A stretch of DNA of 25,076 nucleotides from a virus: IMG/VR virus record IMGVR_UViG_3300047562_002151, positions 1-25,076 of that record; one strand, given 5' to 3'. Under the pieces are notes generated by a model, which was given only the letters and a program-made list of their open reading frames with translations, had not been told where the DNA came from and did no database searches. Both the position numbers and the translations under genes were made by a program. Below are positions 5,805-25,076 of this stretch, in pieces (within the stretch, counting starts at the first letter, position 1; each line of letters starts with the position of its first letter).

Positions 5805-6326
5805 ATGGCATTTAGAAGAAAAACCATTCTCATCAACTCACCCGTAGATCAAAACACATCACAGATTCGTGATTTGACAAAACCAGGGACTCTAAAACCA
5901 ATTGGTATTACTATACCATTCAACAATCCGAGTGGAGTATTCTTCAAGAGTTTTACGAACCGTGAGCAAGTTTTGAGTAACCTAAGAAACCTGTTACTTA
6001 CAGCTAAAGGTGAGAGGTACTTTGAACCAGAATTTGGTACGGATATACGGGGTGTGTTATTTGAAAACATCAGTAATGAGGAGGACTTCTCATCAAGACT
6101 TAGAGGAGAAATATCTTCAGCGATTTCTCGTTGGTTACCGTACTTGGTTATTACGGATCTTACCGTCGATATAAACATAACAGATGAAGGTCAAGTGGAT
6201 AATCCCGAACACGCGTTAAGTATATTTTTACGTGTTCAAATCTCAGGAACAAACATATATTTGCCGGTCAGGATATTTATATCTGAAACAGCAACTATTC
6301 GTGTAACAGAAGAGGCTCAGAACTAA
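5805..6326 (+). CDS. 25: Baseplate wedge protein gp25 (gpW / gp25 family)
   Basis: The 173-residue product belongs to the gp25/gpW baseplate wedge family, which nucleates sheath assembly next to gp6 in T4-like tails. Residues 54-110 carry the hallmark region: helix EQVLSNLRNLLLTAKGE, then RYFEPEFGTDIRGVLFENIS (from residue 71), closely paralleling the T4 pattern with DPEFG and LFEN. The C-terminal part is a set of beta strands (LVITDLTVDINITDEG, LSIFLRVQISG). The N-terminal extension of about 40 residues is longer than in T4 gp25 (132 residues). The start is supported by AGGGAG at 5792-5797 with a 7-base spacer. The stop codon overlaps the start of gp6 by one base (TAATG), and the 25-6 order is typical of contractile-tail gene clusters. 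Confidence 0.92.
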   Translation: MAFRRKTILINSPVDQNTSQIRDLTKPGTLKPIGITIPFNNPSGVFFKSFTNREQVLSNLRNLLLTAKGERYFEPEFGTDIRGVLFENISNEEDFSSRLRGEISSAISRWLPYLVITDLTVDINITDEGQVDNPEHALSIFLRVQISGTNIYLPVRIFISETATIRVTEEAQN

Positions 6327-8227
6327 TGGCAGATTTAGTAAAAAAGGATATTCGTTATCTCGCTAGAGATTTCGGATCACTACGTCAAAATCTAATCGAT
6401 TTTGCAAGGAATTATTTTCCTAACTCATACCAAGACTTCAATGAGTCTTCACCTGGTATGATGTTTCTTGAAATGTCTGCCTACGTTGGTGATGTACTTT
6501 CTTACTATACCGACGTAGCTCTACAAGAATCCATGATTCTTCAGGCATCAGAGACTCAGAATATTTTGAACCTTGCACAATCATTTGGATACACACCAAA
6601 GACATCTGTTGCTGCTAATGTAACTCTTGATGTATTTCAAATTGTACCAGCTATTGGTAGTGGAATAAACAACAGACCCGATTGGAACTATGCTTTTGCA
6701 ATAGAACCCGGTATGCAAGTATCGGCGGAAAACGATAGTAGTATTCAATTCAGAACAATAGAGTATTTAGACTTTAGGTTCAGTAGTTCTTTTGATCCAA
6801 CTGAGATAACAGTTTTCGAAGTTGATGATATATCAAACGAACCAACCTTTTACTTACTAAAGAAGTCTGTAAACGCGGTTTCTGGTGTTCTAAAGACTAC
6901 AACTTATGATTTCGGATCACCAAAACCATATGATAAAGTCATACTACAAGACGATAGAATTATTGAGATACTTTATGCCATAGACTCCGATGCAAATAAA
7001 TGGTATCATGTACCGTATCTTGCACAAGATACTGTCTTTGAGGCAGTTCCGAACATTCCAAGAAATGATACATCCTTGAATATCCATAGAAATGAAACAC
7101 CATACTTGTTGAAGTTGAATAAAGTTTCACGTAGATTTTCTTCACGTGCGTTTGGTAACAACTTCTCTAGCTCATATGAGATAAACTTTGGAGCCGGAGT
7201 TTCTGATTTTGATGACGAGGAAATCATACCGAATCCAGACCTAATCGGTTCATCTTTATCCGGTATAGAAACGTCAGCTTCGCCAAACATAGATCCTTCA
7301 AACTTTCTTTATACGAAGACATATGGATTGGCACCTAATAATACAACACTGACGGTTTACTACACACAAGGTGGTGGAGTTCGTGACAACGTTAGTTCTG
7401 AAACTTTGACTCGAATCATAAGTAGAACTATAACATTGGATGAAACCGGCTTAGATACGACTCTTTACAACCAAGTAATTGGTAGTCTAGCAACAACTAA
7501 TACTCAACCAGCAACCGGCGGTATGGACGGTGAAACCATAAACGAAATCCGTCAGAATGCACTTGCCTCATTTGCGTCACAGAATAGAGCGGTAACAAAA
7601 GAAGACTACATAATACGTGCTTATAGTTTACCACAACGTTACGGGTCAATTGCAAAAGCTTACATCACAAAAGACACACAACTTACCGAGGAATCTATCT
7701 TCAATAGTGATCGTGTTGCGAACGATCTGGCTTTGAATTTATATGTACTTGGATATGATGCTAATAACAAACTAACTACTATAAATGATGCGACTAAAGA
7801 GAATCTAAAGACATACATAAATCACCACCGTATGCTCACTGATGCCATAAACATAAAGGACGCATATGTTGTGAATATCGGTGTGGAGTTTGACATCATA
7901 ACGTTACCAGATCAAAATGGTAACCAAGTAATACTTCGATGTATAGAACGACTAAAGAGATATTTCGATATAAAACGTTGGCAGATAAACCAACCCATTG
8001 TGATCAGTAACGTTTTCACTGAACTGGACAGAGTTGAAGGTGTTCAAACTGTAATTGATGTGAAGTTTGTGAACTATTATGATACAACATTAGGTTATTC
8101 ACCATATGCTTATGATTTAGTTCGTGCAACGAAGGATGGTATCATTTTCCCATCCCTCGATCCATCTATTTTTGAAATCAAATATCCTGACAATGATATT
8201 GTTGGTAGAGTGAGGGCATTTGGATGA
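6326..8227 (+). CDS. 6: Baseplate wedge protein gp6 (baseplate J family)
   Basis: The 633-residue product matches the gp6/gpJ family that forms the ring of the baseplate wedge. The N-terminus has the usual pattern LARDFGSLRQNLIDFARNYF, then FNESSPGMMFLEMSAYVGDV and a helix with QNILNLAQSFGYTP. The central part is beta-rich. Around residues 399-433 comes the strongly conserved J-family element: GGMDGETINEIRQNALASFA, then SQNRAVTKEDYIIRA. The C-terminal domain includes helix NLKTYINHHRMLTDAINIKD and strand-rich sequence. Its length is close to T4 gp6 (660 residues). It overlaps gp25 by one base and the next gene by four (ATGA), so this is a tightly coupled operon. AGAGG at 6311-6315 may serve as a ribosome binding site. 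Confidence 0.93.
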   Translation: MADLVKKDIRYLARDFGSLRQNLIDFARNYFPNSYQDFNESSPGMMFLEMSAYVGDVLSYYTDVALQESMILQASETQNILNLAQSFGYTPKTSVAANVTLDVFQIVPAIGSGINNRPDWNYAFAIEPGMQVSAENDSSIQFRTIEYLDFRFSSSFDPTEITVFEVDDISNEPTFYLLKKSVNAVSGVLKTTTYDFGSPKPYDKVILQDDRIIEILYAIDSDANKWYHVPYLAQDTVFEAVPNIPRNDTSLNIHRNETPYLLKLNKVSRRFSSRAFGNNFSSSYEINFGAGVSDFDDEEIIPNPDLIGSSLSGIETSASPNIDPSNFLYTKTYGLAPNNTTLTVYYTQGGGVRDNVSSETLTRIISRTITLDETGLDTTLYNQVIGSLATTNTQPATGGMDGETINEIRQNALASFASQNRAVTKEDYIIRAYSLPQRYGSIAKAYITKDTQLTEESIFNSDRVANDLALNLYVLGYDANNKLTTINDATKENLKTYINHHRMLTDAINIKDAYVVNIGVEFDIITLPDQNGNQVILRCIERLKRYFDIKRWQINQPIVISNVFTELDRVEGVQTVIDVKFVNYYDTTLGYSPYAYDLVRATKDGIIFPSLDPSIFEIKYPDNDIVGRVRAFG

Positions 8228-9396
8228 TCTACACAATTTACCCGAAGTTTGATACTACTATCTATGAAAAGACAGAATCCCTAAATACGGGAACTGATCA
8301 AATACTTGAGCTTTCACATGAGTTGGTTGGTTCGTCTTCTATTTACAACAGTCGAATTCTTATGAAGTTCGATATGACTGATATAGAGTCGAGAGTAAAC
8401 TCTGGAAAGATTGGGAGTGACGCTAGATATTACCTTCAGCTTAGAACCGCCGAAGTTAGAGAGATACCACAAGAGTACACCGTGTATGCGTATCCTGTGA
8501 GCGGTACATGGGTAAATGGAACTGGAAAATATTTCAACACTCCAATAACAACAGATGGTGCTTCTTGGACATATCGTAGTTCAAAACAAGTTGGTAGACT
8601 TTGGGGTGTAACTGAAGTAACTGGCGGTATAAATTACGAGTGGGATGAAATATCCGAATCTTGGGTTGACGCTGATTTGATTTTTGGTGCTCTGTTTGCC
8701 AGTTCAACTGGATCCTACTTTACCAATGTGGGTGGTGGAACTTGGTGGACGTTTGAAAACACAGAATGTACGCAGTCATTTGCATACGAGTCATCTGATA
8801 TTTACATGGATGTTACATCTATTGTGAACAAGTGGATAACCGGTTCTGGTAGATTTGACAACGAGGGGTTCATACTGAAGTTTTCAACTGAATTGGAAGC
8901 TCTAAATCAATCGGTAACTAGTCTAAAGTTTTTTAGTGCAGATAGTAACACCATTTACGTGCCAAGACTACAAGCTGTATGGGATGACTCACAGTTTATC
9001 ACTGGTAGTCTTCCATCTGTGTCTCTGGAGGATGTTGTGGTCGGTGTAAGCTTGAAAAGATCCTATTCTGAAACAGAAAAGGCAAAGATAAGAGTCGATG
9101 CTTATACGAAGTATCCTCAGAAAACATACACAACACAATCGTATTACACTCAGAAGTATTATCTCCCATCTTCTTCATACTATGAGGTGAGAGATGCGAG
9201 TACGGATGAAGTAATAATACCATTCAACCTAACTGGTAGTAAAATAAGTTGTGATACTGAAGGTAACTATTTCAATTTGTGGATGAATTCTTTTCAACCA
9301 GAAAGATTTTACAGAGTCTTAGTTAGAGTCGATACTGATGGTGGGGATGTTTCCCAAATCTTTGATAACAACTATTACTTCAAGGTTTCAAGATGA
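8224..9396 (+). CDS. Baseplate-associated protein with DNRLRE (CBM96-like) domain
   Basis: The 390-residue product begins with a DNRLRE-type beta domain (residues about 1-258). DNRLRE modules are beta sandwiches related to carbohydrate-binding modules. The signature parts are FDTTIYEKTESLNTGTDQIL, the conserved SRILMKFDMTDIE, the strand ASWTYRSS, the YMDVTSIVNKWITGSG helix-strand with GFILKFS, and the closing IYVPRLQAVWDD. A second, C-terminal domain (about 270-390) is beta-rich, with YYEVRDASTDEVIIPFN, FQPERFYRVLVRVD and FDNNYYFKV, and is not assigned to a known family. The position right after gp6 suggests a wedge or peripheral baseplate component. Glycan binding is possible, but the fold may be purely structural here. 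The start overlaps the gp6 stop (ATGA), with GAGGG at 8212-8216. Confidence 0.7.
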   Translation: MIYTIYPKFDTTIYEKTESLNTGTDQILELSHELVGSSSIYNSRILMKFDMTDIESRVNSGKIGSDARYYLQLRTAEVREIPQEYTVYAYPVSGTWVNGTGKYFNTPITTDGASWTYRSSKQVGRLWGVTEVTGGINYEWDEISESWVDADLIFGALFASSTGSYFTNVGGGTWWTFENTECTQSFAYESSDIYMDVTSIVNKWITGSGRFDNEGFILKFSTELEALNQSVTSLKFFSADSNTIYVPRLQAVWDDSQFITGSLPSVSLEDVVVGVSLKRSYSETEKAKIRVDAYTKYPQKTYTTQSYYTQKYYLPSSSYYEVRDASTDEVIIPFNLTGSKISCDTEGNYFNLWMNSFQPERFYRVLVRVDTDGGDVSQIFDNNYYFKVSR

Positions 9397-11166: not shown

Positions 11167-14100
11167 ATGGCAAACTTTGAATACAAGAACATAAACGAGA
11201 TAATCGCAGATAACAATCCAAAGAGGGGAATTACATTTCCACTTGAAGATCTTGCATTATTAGAAAAGCGAACGATCGTACCAGAATTTGATCCGAGTGT
11301 TATAGATCCAGTTACTGGAAAGAATTCATTCAATGTAGAACTCCATGTATTTTTACGAAACTTGTTTTACGTAAAATCAGCATACAACATTGATACGTAT
11401 TCTTTAGTTGATGGTAAAGACTATCCAAGTTTGTCATTACAGATTCACAGAGATCTTGAAAATCTAAGTGTTCCACCAACTGAATACAAAGTTGTTTACA
11501 ACTTCTTACGTGACTTTATAGGATCATATGATTCTAAAGACAAGATGTTTATATCCGAAATATCTGACGATAGAACGGAGCTAAAACTTTCACTTACGAA
11601 TCCAAACTCTGAACAAGGGGTTGCTCAACTTGCTAGATTTGTCCTTGAGAATCTGAAACCGAAAACCTTTATACCACCAATAGTCTTGAATTTTGGAGAA
11701 AACAAGCTTGTTGATGTTATAAACGTTACATCAGATGGCGACCCATTCTCATTCTATGTAAAACTATACGAACCACTTAGTCCAGACTTAGACATTTTCT
11801 TTACGTGTTGGGTTGCCGTTAGGTTGATGAAACCGTACATTGACACGGTAAACATTTTACCCGATCAATTTGAGCCAGAGATTCCATTTATAAAGGGGCC
11901 GAATTTTGAGGTAGATTATGATTACTGGACTACATCGGATACCGAATATAAGTCATGGACGGAAATCCTTAGTGAAAATGTTCAGACATCTGAACAACTG
12001 ATAAACCGATATATTTCAGGTTCGAGTTTACCAGTTACACTGAATGTGGATTATACAGACTTCAAGAACTTTGTCTATTATTCTAATGCAAGAGATCGTG
12101 TTGACAACTTTGCATATAAAATGGAACTCATTGAGTTCTATAAAACTGAACTCAATACACTTTCTACTGTAACTGGATCTGTTGCAACAAACCGTATAAA
12201 GATTCAGTTACTGAAGGATAAGGTTATAAGTGGATTTGATGGATTTGAAAAATATCTATACTATAACTCAACTGGTAGTTACAACTACACTTATCAAATA
12301 AGTGCGTCAATAGTACCTTATCCAAAATACGAACTTGATGTAACTGCTAGTGTCTATGACATAGCTACGAAGGAAGGAAAATTCAATTTCTATTCATACA
12401 CATCTTCTTTCGTAGAAAATTGGTTGGACTCACTTCTTGAGTATGCAACAGACTATGATGCAAAAAATTACACAGCGTTAGCAAAGGCACTACCAGATCA
12501 TATCAGAGAAGATAGTGATAACGACCAGGCCGTAACGTTCGTCAATATGTTAGGTCAACACTTTGATATTATGTATCTGTACACGGATCACATTTTGAAG
12601 AAGAACCTAAGAATGGAACATCCAAATGATGGTATTTCACAGGATCTTATATTTGACGCAACAAGAAACTTAGGTTGGACGTTATCACATGGAACTCAGA
12701 CAAAAGATTTATGGGAATATGCACTTGGTATAAGTGGTAGTACCGAACCAATATGGACTGGAAAAACAACCATAAACAAGTACCTTGCTAAATCATACGA
12801 AGAGAGAACAAAAGAAGTGTGGAGGCGTATTTTCAATAATCTTCCATACATCTACAAGACAAAAGGAACTGCCCGTGGTATAAAAGCACTTCTTGCTGCT
12901 TATGGTATACCACAGACTATTCTAACTATTCGTGAATTTGGTGGGCCGGATAACGCAGACTTGGGAATAATTCCAAGAGCAGAGTGGGAAAAACACACGT
13001 ACTATCTAAATCTACGTGGTTCTTTACCAACACCAACCACTGCAAGTTATGTTAGTATTCCGTGGGAAAAGGTCACAAGTCCAACGGGTGCATGGCAGTA
13101 TCCAGACACCCTGACATTCCGTTGGAAAATGGAACCAGAGAGTAGATATGCCTACACAGGCAATTCAACACAGACCCTGCTTCAGAAGCAGTCGGGAAGT
13201 CGAGTGGATTGGTTTGTAACAATGGACAAAAATTCAGGAACCGATCTTGGTAAAGGTACATTGGCTTTTTGGATAGGTGATGGAACAACATATACTTCGG
13301 CGTCATTCTACGATCAGTATTTCTATGATGATGTACCAATAAGTCTCATGATCCGTAGAAATCTGAGTAATGATTTGACTGCATCAAATCAGACCTATGA
13401 TGTTTTTGTAAAAACAGCGAAGTATGGCAAACTTGTAATAGAACAATCTGCCAGTATTTCTATAAACGGAACAACCAGTGGTAGTTACAATCAGGCGTGG
13501 GTATCAGATGGAAATCTGTATATCGGATCTGGATCTAATATTCAAACTGATAACATCTTATCGGGTTCAATTTTCGAATTGAGATATTGGTCTTCTCCAC
13601 TTGAAGAAAGTTCTTTCAATAATCACGTTATTGCTCCAAGAGCATACAACGGAAATAGTTCAACATCTTCGTTCTATGATCTACAAGCTCAATTCAAGTT
13701 TTGGCAGGAGTTTGATACTACACTGACTTCAAGTATAGCTAGTTCACACCCCAATCAAACACTGAGTAGTTTCTACTCGTCTCCAAAAACCGCATCTCTA
13801 ATTGGATTCAATTATGATGCTTTCGAGTCGATAACTGAAACCTACAACATGGAAGTTGCAACGGTAGGAAACAATACACCTTTCGCTGAAAAAGTTCGTT
13901 TAGACTCTGGATCATTGCTTGGTGGGTTAGACCCCAATTACTCATCCGAGGTATCTAGATTTGATAAGTTCTCGGTTGACTCAAATAAGCTCATGGTAGC
14001 ATTTTCGCCTCAGAGTATAATAAATGAAGACATCTACGAGGCAATAGGTTACACTTCAATAGATGACTACTTTGGTGAGTATTCCAATATAGACAAAGAT

Positions 14101-15195
14101 GAATATCCAAGACTAAAGTGGTTTGCGAGAGAGTACTGGCAAAAATACCCGAATAAAAATGACTTTACGGCTTACATTCGTCTAATATCACAATTTGACT
14201 TTAGTATCTTTGATCAAATTCGCCAAACTTTACCAGCCCGTGTAAACGAGATTCTTGGTATAGTTGTTGAACCAAATATCTTGGAGAGATCAAAAGTTCG
14301 TTTGGTGAGGAATTTTAGCGGGGTATCTGAAACAGTAACTAGAACAAACGAGATTAGTTCGTCTGGTACTCCAAGTGCCACCGTATCTTCTAAAAGAGCC
14401 ACTATCCTGATTGGCTTTGAGAATGAAAGTTCTTATCAAGAAATCGATGGTGAAACCGATATAGCTATACAGTTTGAAGGATCACAGGATATAAATGTTG
14501 CTGGAGACTATGACACTGTAGTTATTCCAACTGGATTTGCAAGACAGTATAAGTTAGAAATAACAAGTTCTCGTGGTACGGGATTTGCAAATTTTGTACG
14601 TAATACTTTTGTTCCTTACAAAACGACCATAACTACAACTACAGGTTCTATAAATTCGTTGCTTACAACTTACACCAGTTTGATTCAAAACAGGACATAT
14701 GGTAGAGTTTTCGGAAGTATTTCATCTGGAGTCGGCACTGGAGTCTCGACTATATTTGGTGTTGTTGATACTGCATTCACCAATACGTTTGAAAGAGAAA
14801 ACGTATTTTACTCTGAAGGAAGTCCAGATATAGGATTTGGTTCGGGTTGGATTGTTCAGAGAAATGACTCAGGTAAGTCTCAAGCTGTATTTGAATCAAC
14901 ACAATCTTTTAGACGTGATAGTTATTACAGTGAGTACGTTTTTGCTTACACCAGTAGCAAAGATATGGATGAACGAAATTACTTCTCGTATACATTTACA
15001 AGTGCAAGTTTTGAGAATCCACATAACTTACCAAAACCAATACGAGACCATCGCTTTGATGGGTGTAAATTGAGTGGGCCGGATATAAATGTAGATTCAA
15101 GTGAATCTCCAGACGGTAAGCCAGTAGTAGAAGTATTTATAGTAGATCCTAATCAGATAAACTTGAATCAAAATTTCACAAATAGTGGAATATGA
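11167..15195 (+). CDS. Very large baseplate wedge protein, gpI / gp7-like, with embedded LamG-like lectin domain
   Basis: The 1342-residue product starts 5 bases after the coiled-coil gene. Residues about 559-583 hold a tail protein I-type signature, LPYIYKTKGTARGIKALLAA then YGIP, followed by ILTIREFG. The helical region before it (LLEYATDYDAKNYTALAKAL onwards) fits the same family. In P2-like tails gpI partners gpJ; the T4 counterpart of that wedge subunit is gp7 (1032 residues), so this is probably the wedge backbone. Residues about 649-829 resemble a LamG/concanavalin A-like sandwich: TLTFRWKMEPES, ISLMIRRNLS, GNLYIGSGS and the closing GSIFELRYWSSPLEESSF. A third conserved-looking region near 930-1055 contains WFAREYWQKYPNKNDF and LPARVNEILGIVVEPNILER. 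The C-terminal 280 residues are Ser/Thr-rich beta. The lectin call rests on pattern only. Confidence 0.72.
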   Translation: MANFEYKNINEIIADNNPKRGITFPLEDLALLEKRTIVPEFDPSVIDPVTGKNSFNVELHVFLRNLFYVKSAYNIDTYSLVDGKDYPSLSLQIHRDLENLSVPPTEYKVVYNFLRDFIGSYDSKDKMFISEISDDRTELKLSLTNPNSEQGVAQLARFVLENLKPKTFIPPIVLNFGENKLVDVINVTSDGDPFSFYVKLYEPLSPDLDIFFTCWVAVRLMKPYIDTVNILPDQFEPEIPFIKGPNFEVDYDYWTTSDTEYKSWTEILSENVQTSEQLINRYISGSSLPVTLNVDYTDFKNFVYYSNARDRVDNFAYKMELIEFYKTELNTLSTVTGSVATNRIKIQLLKDKVISGFDGFEKYLYYNSTGSYNYTYQISASIVPYPKYELDVTASVYDIATKEGKFNFYSYTSSFVENWLDSLLEYATDYDAKNYTALAKALPDHIREDSDNDQAVTFVNMLGQHFDIMYLYTDHILKKNLRMEHPNDGISQDLIFDATRNLGWTLSHGTQTKDLWEYALGISGSTEPIWTGKTTINKYLAKSYEERTKEVWRRIFNNLPYIYKTKGTARGIKALLAAYGIPQTILTIREFGGPDNADLGIIPRAEWEKHTYYLNLRGSLPTPTTASYVSIPWEKVTSPTGAWQYPDTLTFRWKMEPESRYAYTGNSTQTLLQKQSGSRVDWFVTMDKNSGTDLGKGTLAFWIGDGTTYTSASFYDQYFYDDVPISLMIRRNLSNDLTASNQTYDVFVKTAKYGKLVIEQSASISINGTTSGSYNQAWVSDGNLYIGSGSNIQTDNILSGSIFELRYWSSPLEESSFNNHVIAPRAYNGNSSTSSFYDLQAQFKFWQEFDTTLTSSIASSHPNQTLSSFYSSPKTASLIGFNYDAFESITETYNMEVATVGNNTPFAEKVRLDSGSLLGGLDPNYSSEVSRFDKFSVDSNKLMVAFSPQSIINEDIYEAIGYTSIDDYFGEYSNIDKDEYPRLKWFAREYWQKYPNKNDFTAYIRLISQFDFSIFDQIRQTLPARVNEILGIVVEPNILERSKVRLVRNFSGVSETVTRTNEISSSGTPSATVSSKRATILIGFENESSYQEIDGETDIAIQFEGSQDINVAGDYDTVVIPTGFARQYKLEITSSRGTGFANFVRNTFVPYKTTITTTTGSINSLLTTYTSLIQNRTYGRVFGSISSGVGTGVSTIFGVVDTAFTNTFERENVFYSEGSPDIGFGSGWIVQRNDSGKSQAVFESTQSFRRDSYYSEYVFAYTSSKDMDERNYFSYTFTSASFENPHNLPKPIRDHRFDGCKLSGPDINVDSSESPDGKPVVEVFIVDPNQINLNQNFTNSGI

Positions 15196-15254: not shown

Positions 15255-15950
15255 ATGGGTTATTTAGACAATTCCTCAATTACAGTGGACGCTATCCTTA
15301 CGAAAAAAGGACGTGAGCTTTTAGCAAAAGGAAGACAAAACTTCTCTATTACACAATTTGCTTTGGCAGACGACGAAGTAGATTACGATCTATGGAATCC
15401 AGCACACCCACTCGGTTCTGATTATTATGGTGTTGTAATCGAAAGTATGCCGGTAACAGAGGCAGTACCTGATGAAACTCAATCCATGAAGTATAAGCTA
15501 ATTACCCTGCCTAAGGGTACGACTGCTATTCCATTTGTAACAGTTGGTAGTACATCTATTACTGTGAACGCAACAGATGCTTCGAGTATTGAACCTAACA
15601 TTGTACCGGAAACTCGTTACAAGGGTGGTAACAACATAAACGAATCAAGTTTGAATGCTACACTTGGTTACACCGCAACACTTCTTGACAGTACATACTT
15701 TACACTAAAGGTTGCTAATGGTGGTCAAATTGCAGGACTTTCTTCTGCTCCACAGGCTTCAATGGCTGGTGATGCAGAGACAGCGAACTCTGTCTCGGTT
15801 GTTGGTAAAACTTTCCGTGTTGAGCCAAATAGTCAGGCAAGACTTATTGCTACACAAAAGACAACAAAGGTTATCATCACAGCAAATGAAACTGGCGGAC
15901 GTATCGTAATCGACGTTACGGTAACACCACCAACTCAAACTGCACCATAA
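15255..15950 (+). CDS. Virion structural protein with tail-collar-like N-terminus and Ig-like C-terminus
   Basis: The 231-residue product begins MGYLDNSSITVDAILTKKGR, then ELLAKGRQNFSITQFALADD. This resembles the start of phage tail-collar/fibre N-terminal domains (compare P2 gpH-like T-x2-G-x3-LA...I-x3-A-x-GD), which dock fibres on the baseplate; the likeness is by eye. A middle stretch MKYKLITLPKGTTAIPFVTV is beta-rich. The C-terminal half (about 160-231) looks like a small Ig-like sandwich: SVVGKTFRVEPNSQARLIAT, then VIITANETGGRIVIDVTV. It has the second strong ribosome binding site in the window and is flanked by the largest gaps (59 and 42 bases), so it may be made in higher amounts. 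A connector or decoration protein for the paralogous array downstream is plausible but unproven. Confidence 0.65.
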   Translation: MGYLDNSSITVDAILTKKGRELLAKGRQNFSITQFALADDEVDYDLWNPAHPLGSDYYGVVIESMPVTEAVPDETQSMKYKLITLPKGTTAIPFVTVGSTSITVNATDASSIEPNIVPETRYKGGNNINESSLNATLGYTATLLDSTYFTLKVANGGQIAGLSSAPQASMAGDAETANSVSVVGKTFRVEPNSQARLIATQKTTKVIITANETGGRIVIDVTVTPPTQTAP

Positions 15951-15992: not shown

Positions 15993-17099
15993 ATGGCGAA
16001 TAATTCAAGAATTTTTAGACCTGTTCAAAGACCACTAGATCAATCTGGAATGCCGATGACGGCAGCTGAAAAGGTAATCGAAACCCGTGGACTATGGTCG
16101 GCTGGAACAGGTGAATTATTGACTTTCTTCACAAGTTCAACCCAGACTACTTCATCTCGTGAATATTACTATGCTGTATGGAGTTCTGCTTCTTTAGATT
16201 GTGAAGATGCTCAAGTGTTTTCCGTTGCATATGGACACTATGCTGGATCGGGTTCACTATCACAAGGTGGGGAGGCAAGTGATACACCATCGAAAGCTAT
16301 CTATTCACAGTATAGACTACTTTGTTTAGAACCGACTCAAACTTTGTTTAGTTTGGGTGATGAAGCTGCAACAACACTTTATGATTTTTATGCTATCAAC
16401 TTCAACAGAAGTAAAGTCGGTGATAAAATTGACTTGGGTAATTTTGAACTATGTCTAGCCGAACTTAGTGGTAGTGGGAAGATAAATTCAGCACACACTG
16501 GAAGTGCAGTTGAAGTTTCAGGTTCTAATCCAAAGATTATCAAGCTTATTGATGATTCTGCAGATAAGACTGACGCTTTGGGTTATAATGGTATACCTTC
16601 TCCTGTTAGAAATCTTGTAAGTGGTAGTTTAGCTGATGGTGTACACAATCCATCTGCCCCACACTATTACGGACTTGTTTATGCTGACCTCGGAACAATT
16701 ATTGTCTCTGCTGATGTGTTGAACATCTCCGCGTCATTCAATACCGTTAGTGGTAGTAACATCGCTGGTGACAACTCATTCAAGTTATTCACATCTATAA
16801 GTGGATCTGCAACAAAAGACTTTGGATTTACAGCTAGAGCCGTTGATGTAAAACAACAAGATTTTTACTTCGTAAGAATATCCAATACTGAATTCAACTA
16901 CAGTAATAATCCTACATATGTAAGTGGTAGTTCCGCCGTTGTTGCTAATACAAGCTTCACAAATGAACCGATCACATACATAACATCTATCGGACTTTAC
17001 AATGACAGTGGTGATCTGCTTGCTATCGCAAAAATGAGTAAACCACTTCAAAAATCATTCAATAGTGAATTATCAGTTACTGTGAAATTAGAGTACTAA
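15993..17099 (+). CDS. Tail surface protein A: minimal form of the five-member paralogous family
   Basis: The 368-residue product is almost entirely one module (residues about 30-368), after a short Arg/Pro-containing lead. Module landmarks, in order: ETRGLW; SREYYYAVW; FSVAYGHYAGSGS; AIYSQYRLL; KIDLGNFELCLAEL; IIKLIDDSADKTDAL; YYGLVYADLGTIIVS; FNTVSGSNIAGDNSFKLF; FYFVRISNTEFNYSNNPTYV; ITYITSIGLYNDSGDLLAIA; and a last strand SVTVKLEY. The same order recurs in the next four genes. The protein is Ser/Gly/Thr-rich and beta-rich, with no signal peptide, no membrane segment and no enzyme motif. The last part (IGLYNDSGDLLAIA) recalls the IGLFDxxGDLIAV element of tail-collar fibre domains. It is probably a virion surface or adhesin component. 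AGGA at 15982-15985 has a 7-base spacer to the ATG. Confidence 0.7.
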   Translation: MANNSRIFRPVQRPLDQSGMPMTAAEKVIETRGLWSAGTGELLTFFTSSTQTTSSREYYYAVWSSASLDCEDAQVFSVAYGHYAGSGSLSQGGEASDTPSKAIYSQYRLLCLEPTQTLFSLGDEAATTLYDFYAINFNRSKVGDKIDLGNFELCLAELSGSGKINSAHTGSAVEVSGSNPKIIKLIDDSADKTDALGYNGIPSPVRNLVSGSLADGVHNPSAPHYYGLVYADLGTIIVSADVLNISASFNTVSGSNIAGDNSFKLFTSISGSATKDFGFTARAVDVKQQDFYFVRISNTEFNYSNNPTYVSGSSAVVANTSFTNEPITYITSIGLYNDSGDLLAIAKMSKPLQKSFNSELSVTVKLEY

Positions 17100-17104
17100 A
17101 AGTT

Positions 17105-18169
17105 ATGACACAAGAACAAATTCTAATACGTAAAAGCCTTAGAAACGGTAAAACCTTTACTCCTTTCGTGGATGACATAGATGTGGCTCCAAATCAAAAG
17201 GAAGTGGTATCAGCTCCGCTCTGGTCTAAGAGTCAAGCAGCACTAACAGCTATTTATACCAGCTCTGCTCAATCTACTAATCAGAAGAGATATTACTACG
17301 AAGTTTACAATAGTCAATCAAACTTACAAGGTGCCGAGTCTCAGTTTAGCATTGCTTATGGTGATTCTGTAGGGAGTGGTTCGTCCACTGGTTCGGGTGC
17401 TCAGAATCTATATGACTTTCCTACAAAGGCGGTGTACTCACAATATAGACAGATGCTTTTGAATGCAGGTGATACCTTATTCACTTTCTCTGGTGGTGAG
17501 ACATCCGAATACATATACGTTGTAAACGTAAACCGAGCCAGATTCAAAGATAGAATGGATACAAAGACATGGCAACTTTCATTTTCGGGTTCAGGAGATA
17601 ACTACATCACATTGATAGATGATTCTTCGGCATCAACAACTGACTTAGCACAATTGGGTGGTAGAGTTTTCAATGTTAGAAGTGGTTCTATCGCGAACGG
17701 TATTTACACACCAGACACAACACCGTGGGGATTATTTTATCCAGACCGTGGTGTTATAGTATTGAATGGACAGGCACTTGATGCATCTGCTTCATTCAAT
17801 ACAGAACGTGTCCCTGCAACTGGAAGTGGATTTGATAACGCCTTCAAGTTATTCACTGCTATAAATGAAGCTATGGCGGCTGATGTATCATGGTCATTTC
17901 AAGGTAGAACGAGTGAAGTAATGTCTTCAACATACTATTTTGTACGACTGTTCAATGGTGAGTACAACTATACAACGAATGATAGCTTTATTAGTGGTAG
18001 TTCTGGTGTAGTGAAATATGATTCAATGGTGCGTGATCCACAGGTTTATGTTACTACGATTGGTTTGTATGACGATAATCAGGAATTGCTTGCGGTTGCA
18101 AAACTAAGTAAACCTGTAAAGAAGTCATTTGATAGAGAGTTGGTTATAAAAGTTAAACTAGATTATTGA
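17105..18169 (+). CDS. Tail surface protein B: second minimal paralogue
   Basis: The 354-residue product starts 5 bases after gene A and has no good ribosome binding site, so coupling is likely. Residues about 37-354 are the module: APLWSKSQ; RYYYEVYNSQ; FSIAYGDSVGSGSSTGSG; AVYSQYRQM; DRMDTKTWQLSFSG; YITLIDDSSAS; WGLFYPDRGVIVLNG; FDNAFKLFTAIN; YYFVRLFNGEYNYTTNDSFI; VYVTTIGLYDDNQELLAVAK; last strand VIKVKLDY. It differs from A by having Asp in place of His in the AYGD turn, lacking the AELSG segment after the strand, and having a shorter middle. The N-terminal 36 residues are unrelated to A. Function is inferred as a virion surface protein alongside A; no enzyme motif is seen. Confidence 0.7.
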   Translation: MTQEQILIRKSLRNGKTFTPFVDDIDVAPNQKEVVSAPLWSKSQAALTAIYTSSAQSTNQKRYYYEVYNSQSNLQGAESQFSIAYGDSVGSGSSTGSGAQNLYDFPTKAVYSQYRQMLLNAGDTLFTFSGGETSEYIYVVNVNRARFKDRMDTKTWQLSFSGSGDNYITLIDDSSASTTDLAQLGGRVFNVRSGSIANGIYTPDTTPWGLFYPDRGVIVLNGQALDASASFNTERVPATGSGFDNAFKLFTAINEAMAADVSWSFQGRTSEVMSSTYYFVRLFNGEYNYTTNDSFISGSSGVVKYDSMVRDPQVYVTTIGLYDDNQELLAVAKLSKPVKKSFDRELVIKVKLDY

Positions 18170-18180
18170 GATAAACGCAT

Positions 18181-20784
18181 ATGGCAACAACATTTTCAGA
18201 ATTGTCACTTAGAAGAGATTATGAGTCAGCGCTCCAAAGGGGTGATACAATTACAGCTGGACTCATTCGTAACGAGTTTGTTCAAAGATTTGGTATATCT
18301 CCTGAACAATCACTTGCCAACTCTGAGGGTATTGCACTTGAAAGTGCTGTAGCCGCTAGAAATCTTACTCAGGCACTTACATTTGTAGACTCCCCAACTC
18401 TAAATGCTGGAAGTCAACTTGTAGATATAACTGGTAGACGTAATATCGTCACACCAAATCCAGTGGACGCCAGTGTTGGTGGTAGAACCAATCCTGACTT
18501 AGCACCTCAACGGGGTGGTACTGATTTATCAGGCGGGACTAGAATTATAGATGACATCACTTTCCCACCAGTACCCCCACCACCTCCTGTTATCATCAAT
18601 AATGAACCAACGTGTGATTATCGATACTCTTTTGGTTGTCCTGAATTTTCAAAACGACCAGGTGAGGGAGGATGTAGAATACTATTACCAATTTATAGAA
18701 CGTGTTATCCTTCGGGAAATGCACGATTGTTTGGTGTTGATGCAAATAACCTAAGTTCATTTTCATATGCACCAGAACTACTTGGATACATTGATATATC
18801 GTCATACGTTGATGAATTCAACGAAACGGATACCAATGCTGTAGAAAATGGTGTAGTTGGTACTCGTAGAACTCGTGGTACTAGAATAACAACAGAAAGA
18901 CTAAGACAAGCAATTATCGAGCAGGCAAGTGTTGGAGTCAAGAGTGCTTCTAGATTTATAAAACAGACTGCAGCAAACGGTGAAACGGTAATAGTATCAG
19001 ACACCTCTTCCAGTGGAACAATTGATCTTGTAGCTGTTGTTTCTAACTTACAAGATCCTACACAGTCTGTATTACCGGGACTGGCTCAACCAAAAGGAGA
19101 CATAAATGTAGTTGCAGATTATTGGGCTAGAACTTGTAATCTTGGCAAGCAGCCTGATTACTGTGTAACAGAGAGAACGTTTACACCAAGACCACCGGCT
19201 GAACCACCCGGCCCACGCGGGCCTTTTGTTGGTCTAGATCCAGTACTTATTCCAGGTACACGTAAAATAGTTGGTACACGTAGACTTTACGATATACCAA
19301 TTGATGAAGTTCTAAGAACAACGCCATTTCAAAAACATCCAAGTAAACCATGTAGAATTGCTAAACCAGCAACCTTTGTAGAAGTGCAGGATGTCACTGA
19401 TGATTTCGGTATACCAGTATATGCAGACGAATCTCGTACTCTAATAATTTCCTATCAGAATATCGAGTCTGTTGCTACTGTTATTACAGGCGAACGTGGA
19501 GTTGAATATGTTGGTGAACAAATAGATCCAAACTGTGAATTTAGACTTGAAGAAAAAGAACTTACACCAGAAGACGTATTTGGTGACCCATGTTTGGGTG
19601 TGATAAAGAAAGACGTTTACAAGGTATATGCCGATGGACGACGTGAGTTGTATCTACAAGGTGTCTTCGTAAGATACTTTAGAAAACAAGATGCAGATTG
19701 TTCACCGGAAACTGTAAAAGTTTATCACCCACTTGATTTGGGTAAGGATGTGATGACTGCAAAGATTCGTGCTAGAACAAAGGGTCTCTTTGATGGGGCA
19801 CAAACATTAGAATGCCATCACACAAGTTCAACCCAACCAACTGCTTCAAAAAATCACTACTATGAGGTGACCGATTGTGATTCATGTGGTAAGACTCCAT
19901 ACTTTGCAGTTGCGTATGGTCACAATGCTGGTTCTGGTTCTGTATGGGCGGATGGTGAATTGAATGATACCTCAACACGAGCTATCTACTCACAATATAG
20001 ATTGATGGCACTTGATATGCCTCAAACTGAATTTACTTTCTACACAAATGGTGTAGCTACTTCGTCAAAAGATGTTTATGTCATAAACTTCTCACGTACA
20101 GGTATGAGTGATAGAGTGGATCCTGGTAACTGGGAACTTGCACTTGCTGAACTAAACGGTGGTGCTTATGCAAACAATGTGTTCACCGGAAGTAATGTTG
20201 AAGTTTCTTCTTCAAGTAAGGTCTTGACATTCATAGATAACTCAGGTGACAGGTCTGATAGTATTACGTGTACACACGATCCTTATGTATCATATGATAT
20301 TGTCAGTGGTAGTTTGAACGATGGTGAGGTTGTTTCTGCTAATAGACATACGTATGGTGTTGTATACCCCAACTTAGGTGTAATAGTACTGGATCCATAC
20401 AAACTAAATACTGAGCTTGGATTCAATACAGTGACAGGTAGTAATGTTGCCGGTGATAATGCTTTCAAACTTTTCACTTCTATAAGTGGTTCCGGTACAT
20501 TGGGAAGCTATATGAAAGCAAGAAATGTACAGTATAAGACAACAAACCATTACTTCGTTCGTGTATCTGCACCACTTGCTAATTACAGTAATAATCCAAC
20601 GTATGTCAGTGGAAGTGGTGGTGAATTTTTACACGCTTGTTATGACAAGAACCCACAAACATACATTACGAGTATTGGTCTTTACGATGACTTCAATCAG
20701 TTACTCGCAATAGCAAAACTAAGTAGACCAATAAACAAGTCATTCGATAACGACGTTCTAATAAAAATCAGATTGAACTGGTAA
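18181..20784 (+). CDS. Tail surface protein C: paralogue with long Cys- and Pro-containing N-terminal extension
   Basis: The 867-residue product has the shared module at residues about 527-867, closest to gene A (GHNAGSGS, AIYSQYRLM, DPGNWELALAELNG, FNTVTGSNVAGDNAFKLF, YITSIGLYDDFNQLLAIAKL). The first 526 residues are not shared. They start helical (residues 1-70), then have a Pro run (FPPVPPPPPVIINN), a cluster of four cysteines (145, 153, 165, 175), a basic Thr/Arg-rich helix (TRRTRGTRITTERLRQAI) and a second Cys pair (319, 328). Inside the module there is CHH at 545-547 and CDSC at 566-569, absent from A and B, a possible metal site. A Pro/Gly-rich stretch (PPGPRGPFVG) coincides with a GC-rich hairpin at 19210-19223. 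Probably an elongated virion protein; function otherwise unknown. Confidence 0.68.
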   Translation: MATTFSELSLRRDYESALQRGDTITAGLIRNEFVQRFGISPEQSLANSEGIALESAVAARNLTQALTFVDSPTLNAGSQLVDITGRRNIVTPNPVDASVGGRTNPDLAPQRGGTDLSGGTRIIDDITFPPVPPPPPVIINNEPTCDYRYSFGCPEFSKRPGEGGCRILLPIYRTCYPSGNARLFGVDANNLSSFSYAPELLGYIDISSYVDEFNETDTNAVENGVVGTRRTRGTRITTERLRQAIIEQASVGVKSASRFIKQTAANGETVIVSDTSSSGTIDLVAVVSNLQDPTQSVLPGLAQPKGDINVVADYWARTCNLGKQPDYCVTERTFTPRPPAEPPGPRGPFVGLDPVLIPGTRKIVGTRRLYDIPIDEVLRTTPFQKHPSKPCRIAKPATFVEVQDVTDDFGIPVYADESRTLIISYQNIESVATVITGERGVEYVGEQIDPNCEFRLEEKELTPEDVFGDPCLGVIKKDVYKVYADGRRELYLQGVFVRYFRKQDADCSPETVKVYHPLDLGKDVMTAKIRARTKGLFDGAQTLECHHTSSTQPTASKNHYYEVTDCDSCGKTPYFAVAYGHNAGSGSVWADGELNDTSTRAIYSQYRLMALDMPQTEFTFYTNGVATSSKDVYVINFSRTGMSDRVDPGNWELALAELNGGAYANNVFTGSNVEVSSSSKVLTFIDNSGDRSDSITCTHDPYVSYDIVSGSLNDGEVVSANRHTYGVVYPNLGVIVLDPYKLNTELGFNTVTGSNVAGDNAFKLFTSISGSGTLGSYMKARNVQYKTTNHYFVRVSAPLANYSNNPTYVSGSGGEFLHACYDKNPQTYITSIGLYDDFNQLLAIAKLSRPINKSFDNDVLIKIRLNW
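19210..19230 (+). terminator. Terminator-like hairpin inside the coding region of gene C
   Basis: GGCCC (19210-19214), loop ACGC, GGGCC (19219-19223), followed directly by TTTTGTT. A 5-pair all G/C stem plus T-run is the form of an intrinsic terminator and is conspicuous in AT-rich sequence. It lies about 1.0 kb into gene C, so it may be a leaky attenuator, an mRNA structure, or simply the codons for PPGPRGP. Confidence 0.3.
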
Positions 20785-20785
20785 T

Positions 20786-22960
20786 ATGGCTGCCGAATAT
20801 GAAATCAAGGAAGTTGGCTTCATAGGATCTTTGTGGCGAGGTGGATACGATTCACCTCTAAACATAGGCAAGACAATTGAAGTAACTAATGTACCAAATA
20901 CAATAGAGACATCAAGAAGACAATCTATATTCATTACCGCAAAAGAAGGTATAGACATTGTACGATTGAATAGTCAGCTTCCAGATGTTGAGTTCCAATT
21001 TGAGTTTGGTAAACTAACAGATAGTGAATTAGAGGATATTTCAATTCACACAAAAATCGATAAAACGTTTTTACAGCAACAAGAAATTCTGTTTAGGTAT
21101 AATACTAAAGCACTCATGCGTGGTATAAATGCTAGTTCTATTCCATTGCAAGAAAACTGGTCATTTGATACAACTGATCCTTACAATGTAAAGTATATCT
21201 ACAACGATCCAACCACATCTATTTTTGCAAACTACGTTATACTTGTTGACTCAATTTATCAAGACCAACTTGTAACATACTTCGAGTCTCTACAACAAGA
21301 ATCCTTACCTGTTCCTGTTATCCCACCATCTGTACAACCAGTTTTAGTATCTACTGTAAGTGCGGCTATGTTACCACCACCACCACAAATTCAAGGTGGT
21401 ATTTTCGAAGAACCAGTTGGTGAAGATGAAATTGAAAGACTGGCAATCGAGAGATTTGAAACTCAATTTGAACTCATAGGAACAGATGTTCCAATCGAAA
21501 ATATCGATCCTATATTTACAGCGGGAACAAACGCAGAAATAAATGCTAGCTTGAAACTTATAAGAGAACGTGAGGAGTTTTTAGAGAGAGTACTGGCAGA
21601 TCCAGGCAATACGTTTGATAGTCCATTTAGTGCCATTCGTGGAATTAGGGTAGAACAAGTATATCTTAGACTTGTGAGAAACTATCTATTAGATAGATTC
21701 CGTCAGTTGAATGATGTTGGGTTTGCTACGGATGAACCGGAAAGATATAGCTTTGATGAAGATGGAAATATCATAATCGAACCGAGGGTTATATCAGACC
21801 CACCACCAACTGTTATTGTGAACGAAAACATTGATAGAGATTTTTCCGAATTTGATGACTTCATTGATGAGATAATTGAAGACCTTGAAACAGATGACAA
21901 TAATGTTTACGTATTCAAGAAGGTTTCAAAGATAGCAGATTACTCATTACCAACATTACGATATAAGACAAAGGGTCTTTTCAAGTGTACGGGTGAAAAA
22001 TTATCAACGTATTATACGGGGTCTTTATCTTCTAAGCAGCAGAGATACTACACTTCAGTTTTCAATGAACAACCTGGAACAACAGATTCGTATCACCAGT
22101 TTGATATTACATATTGTCATATATCGGGGTCGGGCTCTTCTTACGTAGAGGGTGAGGTAGATTATTATCCTGCAAAAACTATGTATAGAAAGTATATGTT
22201 AGAGTGTTTCGGGAATACAGCTGGAAAGTTTCCATTCAAGAATGGAAAAAACGGTGATTACTTCTATGCTATACAGTTGGACAGAACTCAGTACAAGGAA
22301 AAATTGGATGCTGGTAATTTTGAACTATCACTTTGTGAATTGTCATCGAGTGGAACTGTTACACATCCAACTTCGACTAGATTTTTTACTTTGATTGATG
22401 ATAGTAAAGACACCAAACAAGAGATAGTTACAAACGAAGGGATTCAAGAATTTTACTACATAACATCTGGATCTTTACGTGATGGTGTCTATAATGAAGT
22501 TAGTGATGATGCATGGGGTGTTGTCTTTCCAAAGATGGGACTTATTGTATTAGATGGTGTAGTGCTAGACCAGTCATGTTCTTTCAGTACTGTTACTTCA
22601 TCCACTGACGGTCAAAATGCAAATCGTTTATTCTTGGCTATAAGTGGTGCCGCAGTTCCAAACGCATATCGTCCTAGTGGATCGTTTTTCGCTAGATCTT
22701 TTGAGACATTTCTAACAGAAACTTATTTCTGTAGAGCAGAACCTACTGAATTCAATCTATCGACTAATTATACATATGTGAGTGGTAGTTATGGGTTATT
22801 GAAATATGACTATTTCAAAAATCGTCCTAGTGCGTACATAACAACGATTGGATTATACAATCGTAAGAAAGAATTGTTAGCAGTGGGTAAACTTAGAAAT
22901 CCTATCCTAAAAACCGAAGGCAAAATTTGCACATTTGAAGTAGTAGTGAGATTGAACTAA
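20786..22960 (+). CDS. Tail surface protein D: paralogue with acidic N-terminal extension
   Basis: The 724-residue product follows gene C with a single base between stop and ATG. The shared module lies at residues about 390-724: YKTKGLFKC; RYYTSVFNEQ; FDITYCHISGSGSS; AKTMYRKYML; EKLDAGNFELSLCELSSSGT; FTLIDDSKDTK; WGVVFPKMGLIVLDG; YFCRAEPTEFNLSTNYTYVS; AYITTIGLYNRKKELLAVGK. The first 389 residues are distinct. They open with EIKEVGFIGSLWRGGYDSPL, include a beta-rich domain to about 170, a Pro-rich hinge (PVPVIPPSVQP, MLPPPPQIQ), helices around 210-300 and a very acidic segment (FSEFDDFIDEIIEDLETDDN) just before the module. No enzyme motif is seen. The extension may anchor the protein or bind a partner specific to it. 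Confidence 0.68.
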   Translation: MAAEYEIKEVGFIGSLWRGGYDSPLNIGKTIEVTNVPNTIETSRRQSIFITAKEGIDIVRLNSQLPDVEFQFEFGKLTDSELEDISIHTKIDKTFLQQQEILFRYNTKALMRGINASSIPLQENWSFDTTDPYNVKYIYNDPTTSIFANYVILVDSIYQDQLVTYFESLQQESLPVPVIPPSVQPVLVSTVSAAMLPPPPQIQGGIFEEPVGEDEIERLAIERFETQFELIGTDVPIENIDPIFTAGTNAEINASLKLIREREEFLERVLADPGNTFDSPFSAIRGIRVEQVYLRLVRNYLLDRFRQLNDVGFATDEPERYSFDEDGNIIIEPRVISDPPPTVIVNENIDRDFSEFDDFIDEIIEDLETDDNNVYVFKKVSKIADYSLPTLRYKTKGLFKCTGEKLSTYYTGSLSSKQQRYYTSVFNEQPGTTDSYHQFDITYCHISGSGSSYVEGEVDYYPAKTMYRKYMLECFGNTAGKFPFKNGKNGDYFYAIQLDRTQYKEKLDAGNFELSLCELSSSGTVTHPTSTRFFTLIDDSKDTKQEIVTNEGIQEFYYITSGSLRDGVYNEVSDDAWGVVFPKMGLIVLDGVVLDQSCSFSTVTSSTDGQNANRLFLAISGAAVPNAYRPSGSFFARSFETFLTETYFCRAEPTEFNLSTNYTYVSGSYGLLKYDYFKNRPSAYITTIGLYNRKKELLAVGKLRNPILKTEGKICTFEVVVRLN

Positions 22961-22961
22961 T

Positions 22962-24725
22962 ATGTCATTTCAAACTGGAAATACAGTAAGTCTTATTTGG
23001 AAGAAACTCAAAAAGGGTGACTACACAGTTCGTCCATTTGAAGTTTACAAGCTATGGGAAATCTCATCAGATTCAAACGAGCCAAATAACTATTATGGAC
23101 TTTATGACATAAACGTCTTCAGAGCATACTATCCTGAGAACCATAAGTACTACGGGGCTGTTGCAAATCTTTCGTCTTCGTTGTATGAACGAATCTTTAC
23201 TACACAAAGTTTAGATCCAAAACTACTTTGGTATTATTTAGATCACAACTTCTACACGGAGTATAGTAAAGAAAAAACGCCTACGGTAATAACTGATTAT
23301 AGTAGGGTAACTTATCTCGCTGAGTCTAGTTCTATCATGGTTTTACCACAAGGTGTCTTTGGGGAGGGAATACGTCGAGGTACTGTAAACATAACAAATG
23401 TACATCCATCAGCATCTAGACAAGTTCACATGACAGATGATGGTAGTGGTAATTTGAAAGACAACGCGTTTGATGAATCAAAAATTGTTGGTGATGATAG
23501 ACTGTATTTATACGTCGGTTTCAATGAAAAGTACAGAGAATATAACTTTAGGAATAAACCAACAGAGTACGTTTTGGATTCATCCCCATTGCATAACACT
23601 GTTACATCTATACGGAACAAACAGATAACGTATCTACCCGGTATACCTACAACCGATACTTCAGAATCAAGTGGTGTTTCTGCGTATTTAGATGGTGGTT
23701 ATTACAACATAGAAAGACCAACCGAGTTCAACTTTAGTGGAAGAACTAGTTTTGCATTTAGTTTTTGGATAAACATCCCACCTACTCAATCGAATTTGAC
23801 GCAAACATATAACAGTCTATTTGATAAACAAACAACACGTGAGTTTATCGTAAAAGATAGACAAACAAAAGTTGTCTCCCAAGTTGATAGTAATGCTGGA
23901 ACAACCACCATATACGGTGGTGCTACTAATTATCCGTTTGATATACGTATTTACAACGAAACTGCTGATGCGTCTTACAAACACAAACTTGAGTTTTCTC
24001 AAAAGTCTGGAAACACGTTACTATCTGTAACATCTAGTGCAATATCTGAATCAATTTGGAATCATATTGTTTGCCAAAAAAGCGCAAGCTATTATCAAAT
24101 ATGGGTGAACGGTATCTTGAGTGGTGAGATTAGCGGGTCAATTTCCACCAATACAAGTAACGAAAACAAGTTCTATGTTGGTGGTAATGGTACACAATCT
24201 GGTAGCTTTAGTGGGTACTTGGATGAAATACGGGTTTACAATAAAGGACTCACAACAGAACAGATAAGTTACTTGGGGGATAACAGTTTTTCAACCGGCT
24301 ATGCTTATCAGACGGCAAGAATAGGTAATGTGTTTTATAAACACGGTATGATTGTTGTTTCCGACCCAAGACCTAAGTATTGGGATGTATTCTTAGGTGA
24401 AACTGGTAACTTTGATTTTAGTGGAACACAATACGGTTTCACAGGCTCATTTCGTAGTACAACCACCCTTTATGAGTATGAGGTTATTTGTAAAATCAGA
24501 AAATCTGAGTTCAATTTTACGCAAAATTGGACTGTCAGAAAAGACAAGAATATGGAGTCACAAGTAGTAGATGATTACGTAACAAGTTCGTTTTTCAATC
24601 CATACATAACAACCATTGGTTTATACAACGATAACTACGATCTTATTGCTATTGGTAAACTGGCATCACCACTTGAAAAGAGAGATGACGTAGATATGAA
24701 CATCATTGTTAGATGGGACATTTGA
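22962..24725 (+). CDS. Tail surface protein E: paralogous module split by a LamG-like lectin domain
   Basis: The 587-residue product follows gene D with a 1-base gap. The first part (about 29-180) is a diverged module N-half: EVYKLWEISS, an NNYYGLYDINVFRAYYPENH strand region, FGEGIRRGTVNITN and MTDDGSGNLKDNAF. Residues about 181-440 look like a LamG/concanavalin A-like lectin: LYVGFNEKY, VLDSSPLHNTVT, SFAFSFWINIPP (from residue 263), WNHIVCQKSASYYQIWVNG and the closing YLDEIRVYNKGLTTEQI (from 419). The module then resumes: IGNVFYKHGMIVVSDPRP, YEYEVICKIRKSEFNFTQNW, YITTIGLYNDNYDLIAIGKL and last strand NIIVRWDI. The inserted lectin makes this the most likely receptor- or glycan-binding member of the set. 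That role is inference; the fold call rests on the recognisable sequence pattern. Confidence 0.73.
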   Translation: MSFQTGNTVSLIWKKLKKGDYTVRPFEVYKLWEISSDSNEPNNYYGLYDINVFRAYYPENHKYYGAVANLSSSLYERIFTTQSLDPKLLWYYLDHNFYTEYSKEKTPTVITDYSRVTYLAESSSIMVLPQGVFGEGIRRGTVNITNVHPSASRQVHMTDDGSGNLKDNAFDESKIVGDDRLYLYVGFNEKYREYNFRNKPTEYVLDSSPLHNTVTSIRNKQITYLPGIPTTDTSESSGVSAYLDGGYYNIERPTEFNFSGRTSFAFSFWINIPPTQSNLTQTYNSLFDKQTTREFIVKDRQTKVVSQVDSNAGTTTIYGGATNYPFDIRIYNETADASYKHKLEFSQKSGNTLLSVTSSAISESIWNHIVCQKSASYYQIWVNGILSGEISGSISTNTSNENKFYVGGNGTQSGSFSGYLDEIRVYNKGLTTEQISYLGDNSFSTGYAYQTARIGNVFYKHGMIVVSDPRPKYWDVFLGETGNFDFSGTQYGFTGSFRSTTTLYEYEVICKIRKSEFNFTQNWTVRKDKNMESQVVDDYVTSSFFNPYITTIGLYNDNYDLIAIGKLASPLEKRDDVDMNIIVRWDI

Positions 24726-24726
24726 T

Positions 24727-25076
24727 ATGAAAAGAAATGCAGTTGCGATAAAACACGGGTTTCGTTCTGGTCTTGAAGATACAATCAATGAAAATCTAAA
24801 ATCCTCAAAGAAAAAGTACAGTTACGAAACCGAGAAACTTTCGTATATTAGACCAGCCACAAACCACACCTACACACCCGACTTTGTTCTACAAAAGAAA
24901 AAGGGTGGAACAATGTACTTGGAAACAAAAGGACGTTGGGTAAAAGCCGATAGAGAAAAGATGGAACTGATATTCGATCAATATCCAAACATAGATATTA
25001 GGTTTGTCTTTCAGAATCCAAATGCAAAACTCTACAAGGGAAGTAAAACAACCTATGCACAGTATTGCGATAAAAA
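24727..25076 (+). CDS. T7 endonuclease I-type Holliday junction resolvase, 3'-truncated by window edge
   Basis: A frame from ATG 24727 stays open to the window end (116 full codons; T7 gp3 has 149 residues). Sequence similarity to T7 endonuclease I is clear: HGFRSGLEDTINENLKS, NHTYTPDFVLQ, YLETKGRWVKADREKMELIF, IDIRFVFQNPNAKLYKGSKT and TYAQYCDK. All four catalytic residues of the family are present: Glu17, Asp52, Glu66 and Lys68 (E20, D55, E65 and K67 in T7). The enzyme cleaves four-way junctions and branched DNA so that replicated phage DNA can be packaged. It starts one base after gene E, so it is in the same operon as the tail genes. T4 uses an unrelated enzyme, gp49 (endonuclease VII), for this role. 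Confidence 0.93.
   Translation, partial: MKRNAVAIKHGFRSGLEDTINENLKSSKKKYSYETEKLSYIRPATNHTYTPDFVLQKKKGGTMYLETKGRWVKADREKMELIFDQYPNIDIRFVFQNPNAKLYKGSKTTYAQYCDK

Follow-up and report, generated by a model that had tools for sequence, protein, structure and literature searches.

Five consecutive genes, A to E, in a 25,076-nucleotide stretch of DNA from a large T4-like freshwater phage (IMG/VR record IMGVR_UViG_3300047562_002151; hereafter the window) encode proteins that share one conserved module with different additional parts attached to it. We consider it probable that these proteins are paralogous structural components of the baseplate periphery in a T4-like contractile tail, in which the module would serve as the anchor and the extra parts would be displayed; their location in the virion is predicted. 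One conserved module with differing attachments, and descent by tandem duplication, had both been proposed in a preliminary description of the window, and both proposals are borne out by the homology of the modules of A to D and, for E, by profile comparison. The same analysis led to a different view of gene E and of the origin of the attached parts.

The shared module in genes A to D

The five genes lie on one strand (+) and are separated by 1-11 nt. Their coordinates in the preliminary description were exact, and the module starts found for A, B, C and D (residues ~27, ~35, 527 and 389; Table 1) agree with the approximate values that it gave. The proteins encoded by A to D have in common a C-terminal module of ~340 residues with pairwise identities of 32-47%. 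In pairwise blastp comparisons with the database size set to 1e8, the E-values for the module were 1.7e-62 (A-B), 2.3e-89 (A-C), 1.5e-49 (A-D), 5.9e-50 (B-C), 1.4e-45 (B-D) and 1.1e-39 (C-D). By these alignments the homology of A to D is far above the chance level.

Table 1. Coordinates in the window of the array genes, their parts and the neighbouring genes
Feature	Position	Strand	Remarks
Gene A	15993..17099	+	368 aa; module only (residues ~27-368); the short N-terminus ahead of it is poorly modelled
Gene B	17105..18169	+	354 aa; module only, residues ~35-354
Gene C, whole	18181-20784	+	867 aa
Gene C, N-terminal part	18181..19758	+	residues 1-526; fast-evolving, no family match
Gene C, module	19759..20784	+	residues 527-867
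Gene D, whole	20786-22960	+	724 aa
Gene D, N-terminal part	20786..21949	+	residues 1-388; tip (residues 1-50) conserved, middle variable
Gene D, module	21950..22960	+	residues 389-724
Gene E, whole	22962-24725	+	587 aa
Gene E, first module part	22962..23495	+	residues 1-178; hhalign, AlphaFold2
Gene E, inserted LamG/concanavalin-A-like domain	23496..24290	+	residues ~179-443; PF13385, AlphaFold2 beta-rich block
Gene E, last module part	24291..24725	+	residues 444-587; blastp and profiles
Baseplate wedge gp25	5805..6326	+	PF04965, 1.6e-9; PHROG 261, 1.9e-13
Baseplate wedge gp6/J-like	6326..8227	+	PHROG 6, E 2e-17; Baseplate_J, 6.5e-4
Conserved 390-aa protein following gp6	8224-9396		by eye recalls DNRLRE/carbohydrate-binding-like domains; no library match
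1342-aa protein	11167..15195	+	position conserved; 1159-1758 aa in relatives
Conserved ~220-aa protein (MGYLDNSS...)	15255..15950	+	231 aa in the window; immediately 5' of the array in most relatives
Phage endonuclease I	24727-25076		PF05367, 4.8e-36; truncated at the window end; directly 3' of the array in many relatives

Gene E: the module interrupted by a LamG domain

The idea that all five genes carry one module holds for A to D at the level of blastp (1e-39 to 1e-89), and for E the direct sequence evidence is confined to the last ~90 residues: in blastp comparisons with A to D just the final 40-110 residues align (A-E 1.9e-5, C-E 0.09). The full set of landmark motifs that had been attributed to E is not present in it, and its distinct part is mostly internal rather than N-terminal, as had been thought. 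This internal part contains a LamG domain (PF13385, E 1.8e-13, residues 311-436) that scores 51.3 bits against a gathering cut-off of 27.6. E-like proteins of 304-357 aa that are devoid of LamG occur in four relatives (L002, L004, L021 and L022).

Profiles of the A-type and E-type families match each other by hhalign with a probability of 99.2% over the C-terminal part, and the comparisons of the A type with the E type taken together gave 99.1-99.6%, which upholds the common ancestry of E with the A-type family. When the columns of the LamG domain are cut out, E becomes collinear with the A-type profile over 225 columns, at a probability of 99.6% and an E-value of 8e-25; taken alone, the first halves of the two module types match at 66% (E 5.5e-5), and the LamG domain of E showed no hhalign match to the A-type profile. 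In AlphaFold2 models that were predicted separately for A (mean pLDDT 87.6, with residues 1-18 below 50) and E (mean pLDDT 90.2), the order of helices and strands is identical. The LamG domain of the E model is located between the strand that carries the IDDS motif and the strand that carries the GVxYP motif. In Foldseek searches the A model retrieved an E-like protein that carries LamG, A0A6J5N9K5 (E 1.3e-7), and the E model retrieved the A-like proteins A0A6J5LXN9, A0A1B1IWT5 and A0A6J5KW04. From the hhalign results, the AlphaFold2 models and the cross-matching in Foldseek, we conclude that E is the same module and fold as A, interrupted by an inserted LamG domain. The PDB matches of the E profile (clostridial toxin binding domains, an arabinanase and pentraxins) reflect the concanavalin-A fold of LamG and are uninformative with respect to the module or to toxicity.

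The module itself has no Pfam or PHROGs model. A Foldseek search of the PDB with the A model returned no structure at E <= 1e-3, and the A-type profile had no meaningful match among PDB sequences; the caspase matches of this profile (E >= 0.38) are attributed to chance. Among viral models, 11 matches to the A model pass 1e-3, and apparently all of them are relatives within the A/E module family. No known baseplate protein exhibited profile or fold similarity to the module, the fold of which appears to be undescribed and to have no solved relative in the libraries searched.

The attached parts of C and D

In comparisons of C from the window with its closest relatives the module is 78-93% identical and most of the 526-residue N-terminal part is 24-45% identical; its first 100 residues exhibit an identity of 27-28% to close relatives and include no conserved N-terminal anchor. 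The corresponding values for D are 72% for residues 1-50, 28-39% for the middle and 79-91% for the module. Among orthologs the N-terminal part ranges in length from 484 to 1023 aa in C and from 78 to 530 aa in D. Searches of Pfam and PHROGs with the N-terminal parts of C and D yielded nothing useful apart from Ig-like domains, one in the C ortholog of L025 and another in one A-type protein of L083. In L102 and L103 the N-terminal domain of D (residues 1-172) has a gene of its own immediately 5' of D, and the start element of split D proteins is contained within D where this protein is fused (L001, L025 and L027); such fission or fusion suggests that both parts of D act together.

It had been suggested that the array arose with swapping of N-terminal parts between the copies. 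Among the orthologs compared, N-termini of C and of D did not match each other in either direction, which leaves exchange within the array unsupported, as does the monophyly of each of A to D across 13 phages. Judged from these alignments, the N-termini look as if they had grown by accretion within particular lineages, changed rapidly and undergone fusion or fission of genes, and not as if they had been exchanged between genes of the array.

Genomic neighbourhood

A setting among baseplate genes is supported by the position of the array behind gp25 and gp6. The order upstream of it in the window is gp25, gp6, the 390-aa protein, a 589-aa protein, the 1342-aa protein and the 231-aa protein. A similar block is repeated in distant relatives, in the order gp25, gp6, ~380-aa protein, a variable segment, ~1300-aa protein, ~220-aa protein, array, endonuclease and a primase-like gene. 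By its position, the 1342-aa protein is a candidate for the counterpart of gp7. At 254-985 the window also contains an ORF of 243 aa that by eye has the look of a T4 gp55-type late sigma factor and that gave no PHROGs or Pfam match.

Distribution and copy number

Relatives detected by tblastn include Microcystis phage Mel-JY01, Flavobacterium phage immuto, a 484-kb uncultured phage and Rhodothermus phage RM378. Matches to the module family were found in at least 600 stretches in scans of viral contigs, which indicates that the family is common. Copy number varies among relatives, with arrays of 2, 3, 5 and 7 copies. Among the matches listed, arrays delimited at both ends show the order A-E at no fewer than 77 loci (69 contigs), A-A-A-A-E at no fewer than 18 (16 contigs), A-A-E at no fewer than 4, and an A together with a split E at no fewer than 2. 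Seven consecutive A-type genes of 363-767 aa, some of them very divergent, are present in L056/L057; these contigs end soon after the seven genes and an E-like gene might have been cut off. By these sequence comparisons, which span about 90 contigs, the basal state is an adjacent pair of one A-like and one E-like gene.

Exactly four A-type copies plus E are characteristic of one phage clade that includes the window and Mel-JY01, and a sister lineage has seven. In a tree of the module with 93 rows, the sequences of each of the four genes A to D from 13 phages form a monophyletic group with 100% support, and B is placed among the single-copy A-like proteins of two-gene phages. An independent tree of gp6 likewise unites the five-gene phages in a single clade (SH-aLRT 99), whose sister lineage is the seven-copy phage. 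The monophyly of A to D together with the single clade in the gp6 tree implies that the duplications are old and had a single origin for the five-gene clade, within which the array has stayed constant at four plus one. Old, single duplications and a constant composition point to specialised, non-interchangeable roles and argue against shuffling between copies. In an A-A-E phage (L087:7903-10766), the first of the two A-type genes is placed with D (92/96) and the second in the branch containing B and the single-copy genes, an order that is reversed; from this grouping, D may be older than the five-gene clade.

Proposed role of the array and its alternatives

As we picture its history, an ancestral pair of an A-like and an E-like protein would have been produced from neighbouring genes and probably assembled together. 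Tandem duplication of the A-like gene would then have given rise, in the lineage of the window, to four fixed and specialised copies, A to D, with B nearest to the original. The C-terminal module would anchor each protein, either on the wedge or on neighbouring proteins, and the long N-terminus of C, the N-terminal domain of D and the LamG domain of E would project outward, where they would meet the host surface or fibres. That the proteins dock by a common fold is plausible and agrees with the pattern of conservation. The proposal that A to E are proteins of the baseplate periphery draws on the operon position behind gp25 and gp6, which is kept in distant relatives, and their membership in the virion is predicted from this gene context. 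LamG and Ig-like domains are typical surface-display domains, and their occurrence in E and in the C ortholog of L025 is counted in favour of a display role. The variability of the N-termini could, alternatively to host-driven change, result from relaxed constraint on linkers. A broader formulation, which we put forward tentatively and to which we would assign somewhat less than an even chance, is that the undescribed family constitutes a modular baseplate chassis, in which the conserved C-terminal module anchors and variable N-terminal or inserted domains are displayed, and in which a pair has grown to five and seven specialised paralogs in a hetero-oligomeric rim that partly replaces separate tail-fibre genes in widespread aquatic T4-like phages.

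The polarity of the proteins might be the reverse, such that they would be fibres or fibre adaptors with their N-termini on the baseplate and the C-terminal module as an exposed knob or trimerisation domain. Classical tail fibres do attach through the N-terminus, many free C-terminal knobs are beta-rich, and the conserved residues 1-50 of D ahead of its variable middle resemble an anchor; yet no part is more conserved than the module, which, unlike host-specific tips, is common to Microcystis, Flavobacterium and Rhodothermus phages, C has no such anchor at its N-terminus, and A and B consist of little more than the module. The pattern of an ordinary tail fibre, a conserved N-terminus followed by a variable C-terminus, is reversed in C and is not found in D, where the tip and the C-terminal module are conserved around a variable middle. 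We regard this polarity as unlikely.

It seems quite improbable that the A-type proteins are highly diverged homologs of T4 gp8, the wedge dimer (PDB 1N7Z; PMC3004832), expanded in the lineage of the window. Their comparable length (about 340 aa) and their location after a very large protein behind gp6, as T4 gp8 follows gp7, prompted the comparison, but hhalign gave a probability of 0.3% against a gp8 alignment of 5 sequences, gp8 was not among the best 50 Foldseek matches listed for the A model, and the PDB searches described above, by fold and by sequence profile, lend the homology no support. The scan of viral contigs for cyanophage gp8 recovered near copies only. Least probable, in our estimate, is that A to E act outside the virion as chaperones or assembly factors encoded within the baseplate operon. 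T4 gp8 also assists the folding of gp6 as a chaperone (PMC3004832), and the literature searched yielded neither mass spectrometry nor cryo-EM of an array member and no virion proteomics of Mel-JY01, immuto or RM378; the LamG and Ig-like domains, the large variable extensions and the fixed specialised copies are nevertheless better suited to structural display.

Comparison with known systems

The nearest isolate is Mel-JY01 (PP395634.1, 172489-181435; gp6 68% identical), which matches the window in all five genes, in their order and in their neighbours; its five array genes are annotated only as hypothetical proteins, and its C has 954 aa. Flavobacterium phage immuto has an A-like and an E-like neighbour at the same locus (genes 164-165), with a single A-like copy and, in contrast to the E of the window, no LamG domain in its E-like protein; the two-gene form also occurs in many uncultured phages. 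Rhodothermus phage RM378, which is classed as a Far-T4 phage (PMC4360716), retains an A-like gene (Rm378p128) with no recognised E-like neighbour. The gene that follows it (L003:13635-14342) begins like the ~220-aa protein found upstream of the array elsewhere. None of the Far-T4 marker genes gp23, gp20 and gp17 was identified in the window. With the phage LamG/concanavalin-A-like proteins (PF13385) the E protein has a domain in common, which in E is an insertion within the module.

The closest precedent is the set of T4 gp10, gp11 and gp12, which are encoded by consecutive genes, are located at the baseplate periphery in mutual contact, and possess a common primordial fold with added subdomains; they have been proposed to descend from a single ancestor and to have specialised afterwards (Leiman et al. 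2010, PMC3004832). A to E resemble this set as adjoining genes for one module with different additions and, as predicted here, in their peripheral location. Membership in the set is unsupported, since no common fold was found: the flower-motif fold of the trimeric gp10, gp11 and gp12 was not matched by any PDB structure at E <= 1e-3 or by sequence profile, and the A-type module has no fold or profile match to these proteins. Whereas the T4 relationship was described from structures, the modules of A to D are still 32-47% identical, and, unlike the T4 set, the array exists in 2, 3, 5 or 7 copies, one of which bears a LamG domain inside the module. The receptor-binding proteins of the array-bearing phages have so far been unannotated, and candidates for the parts that contact the host in this abundant group, which includes a Microcystis phage, are the LamG domain of E and the rapidly changing segments of C and D. 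The array would represent a second case, on a fold that has no solved relatives, of the extension of a baseplate by gene duplication as proposed for gp10, gp11 and gp12, and one in which intermediate stages of two, three, five and seven genes persist in living lineages, so that its history can be traced by sequence.
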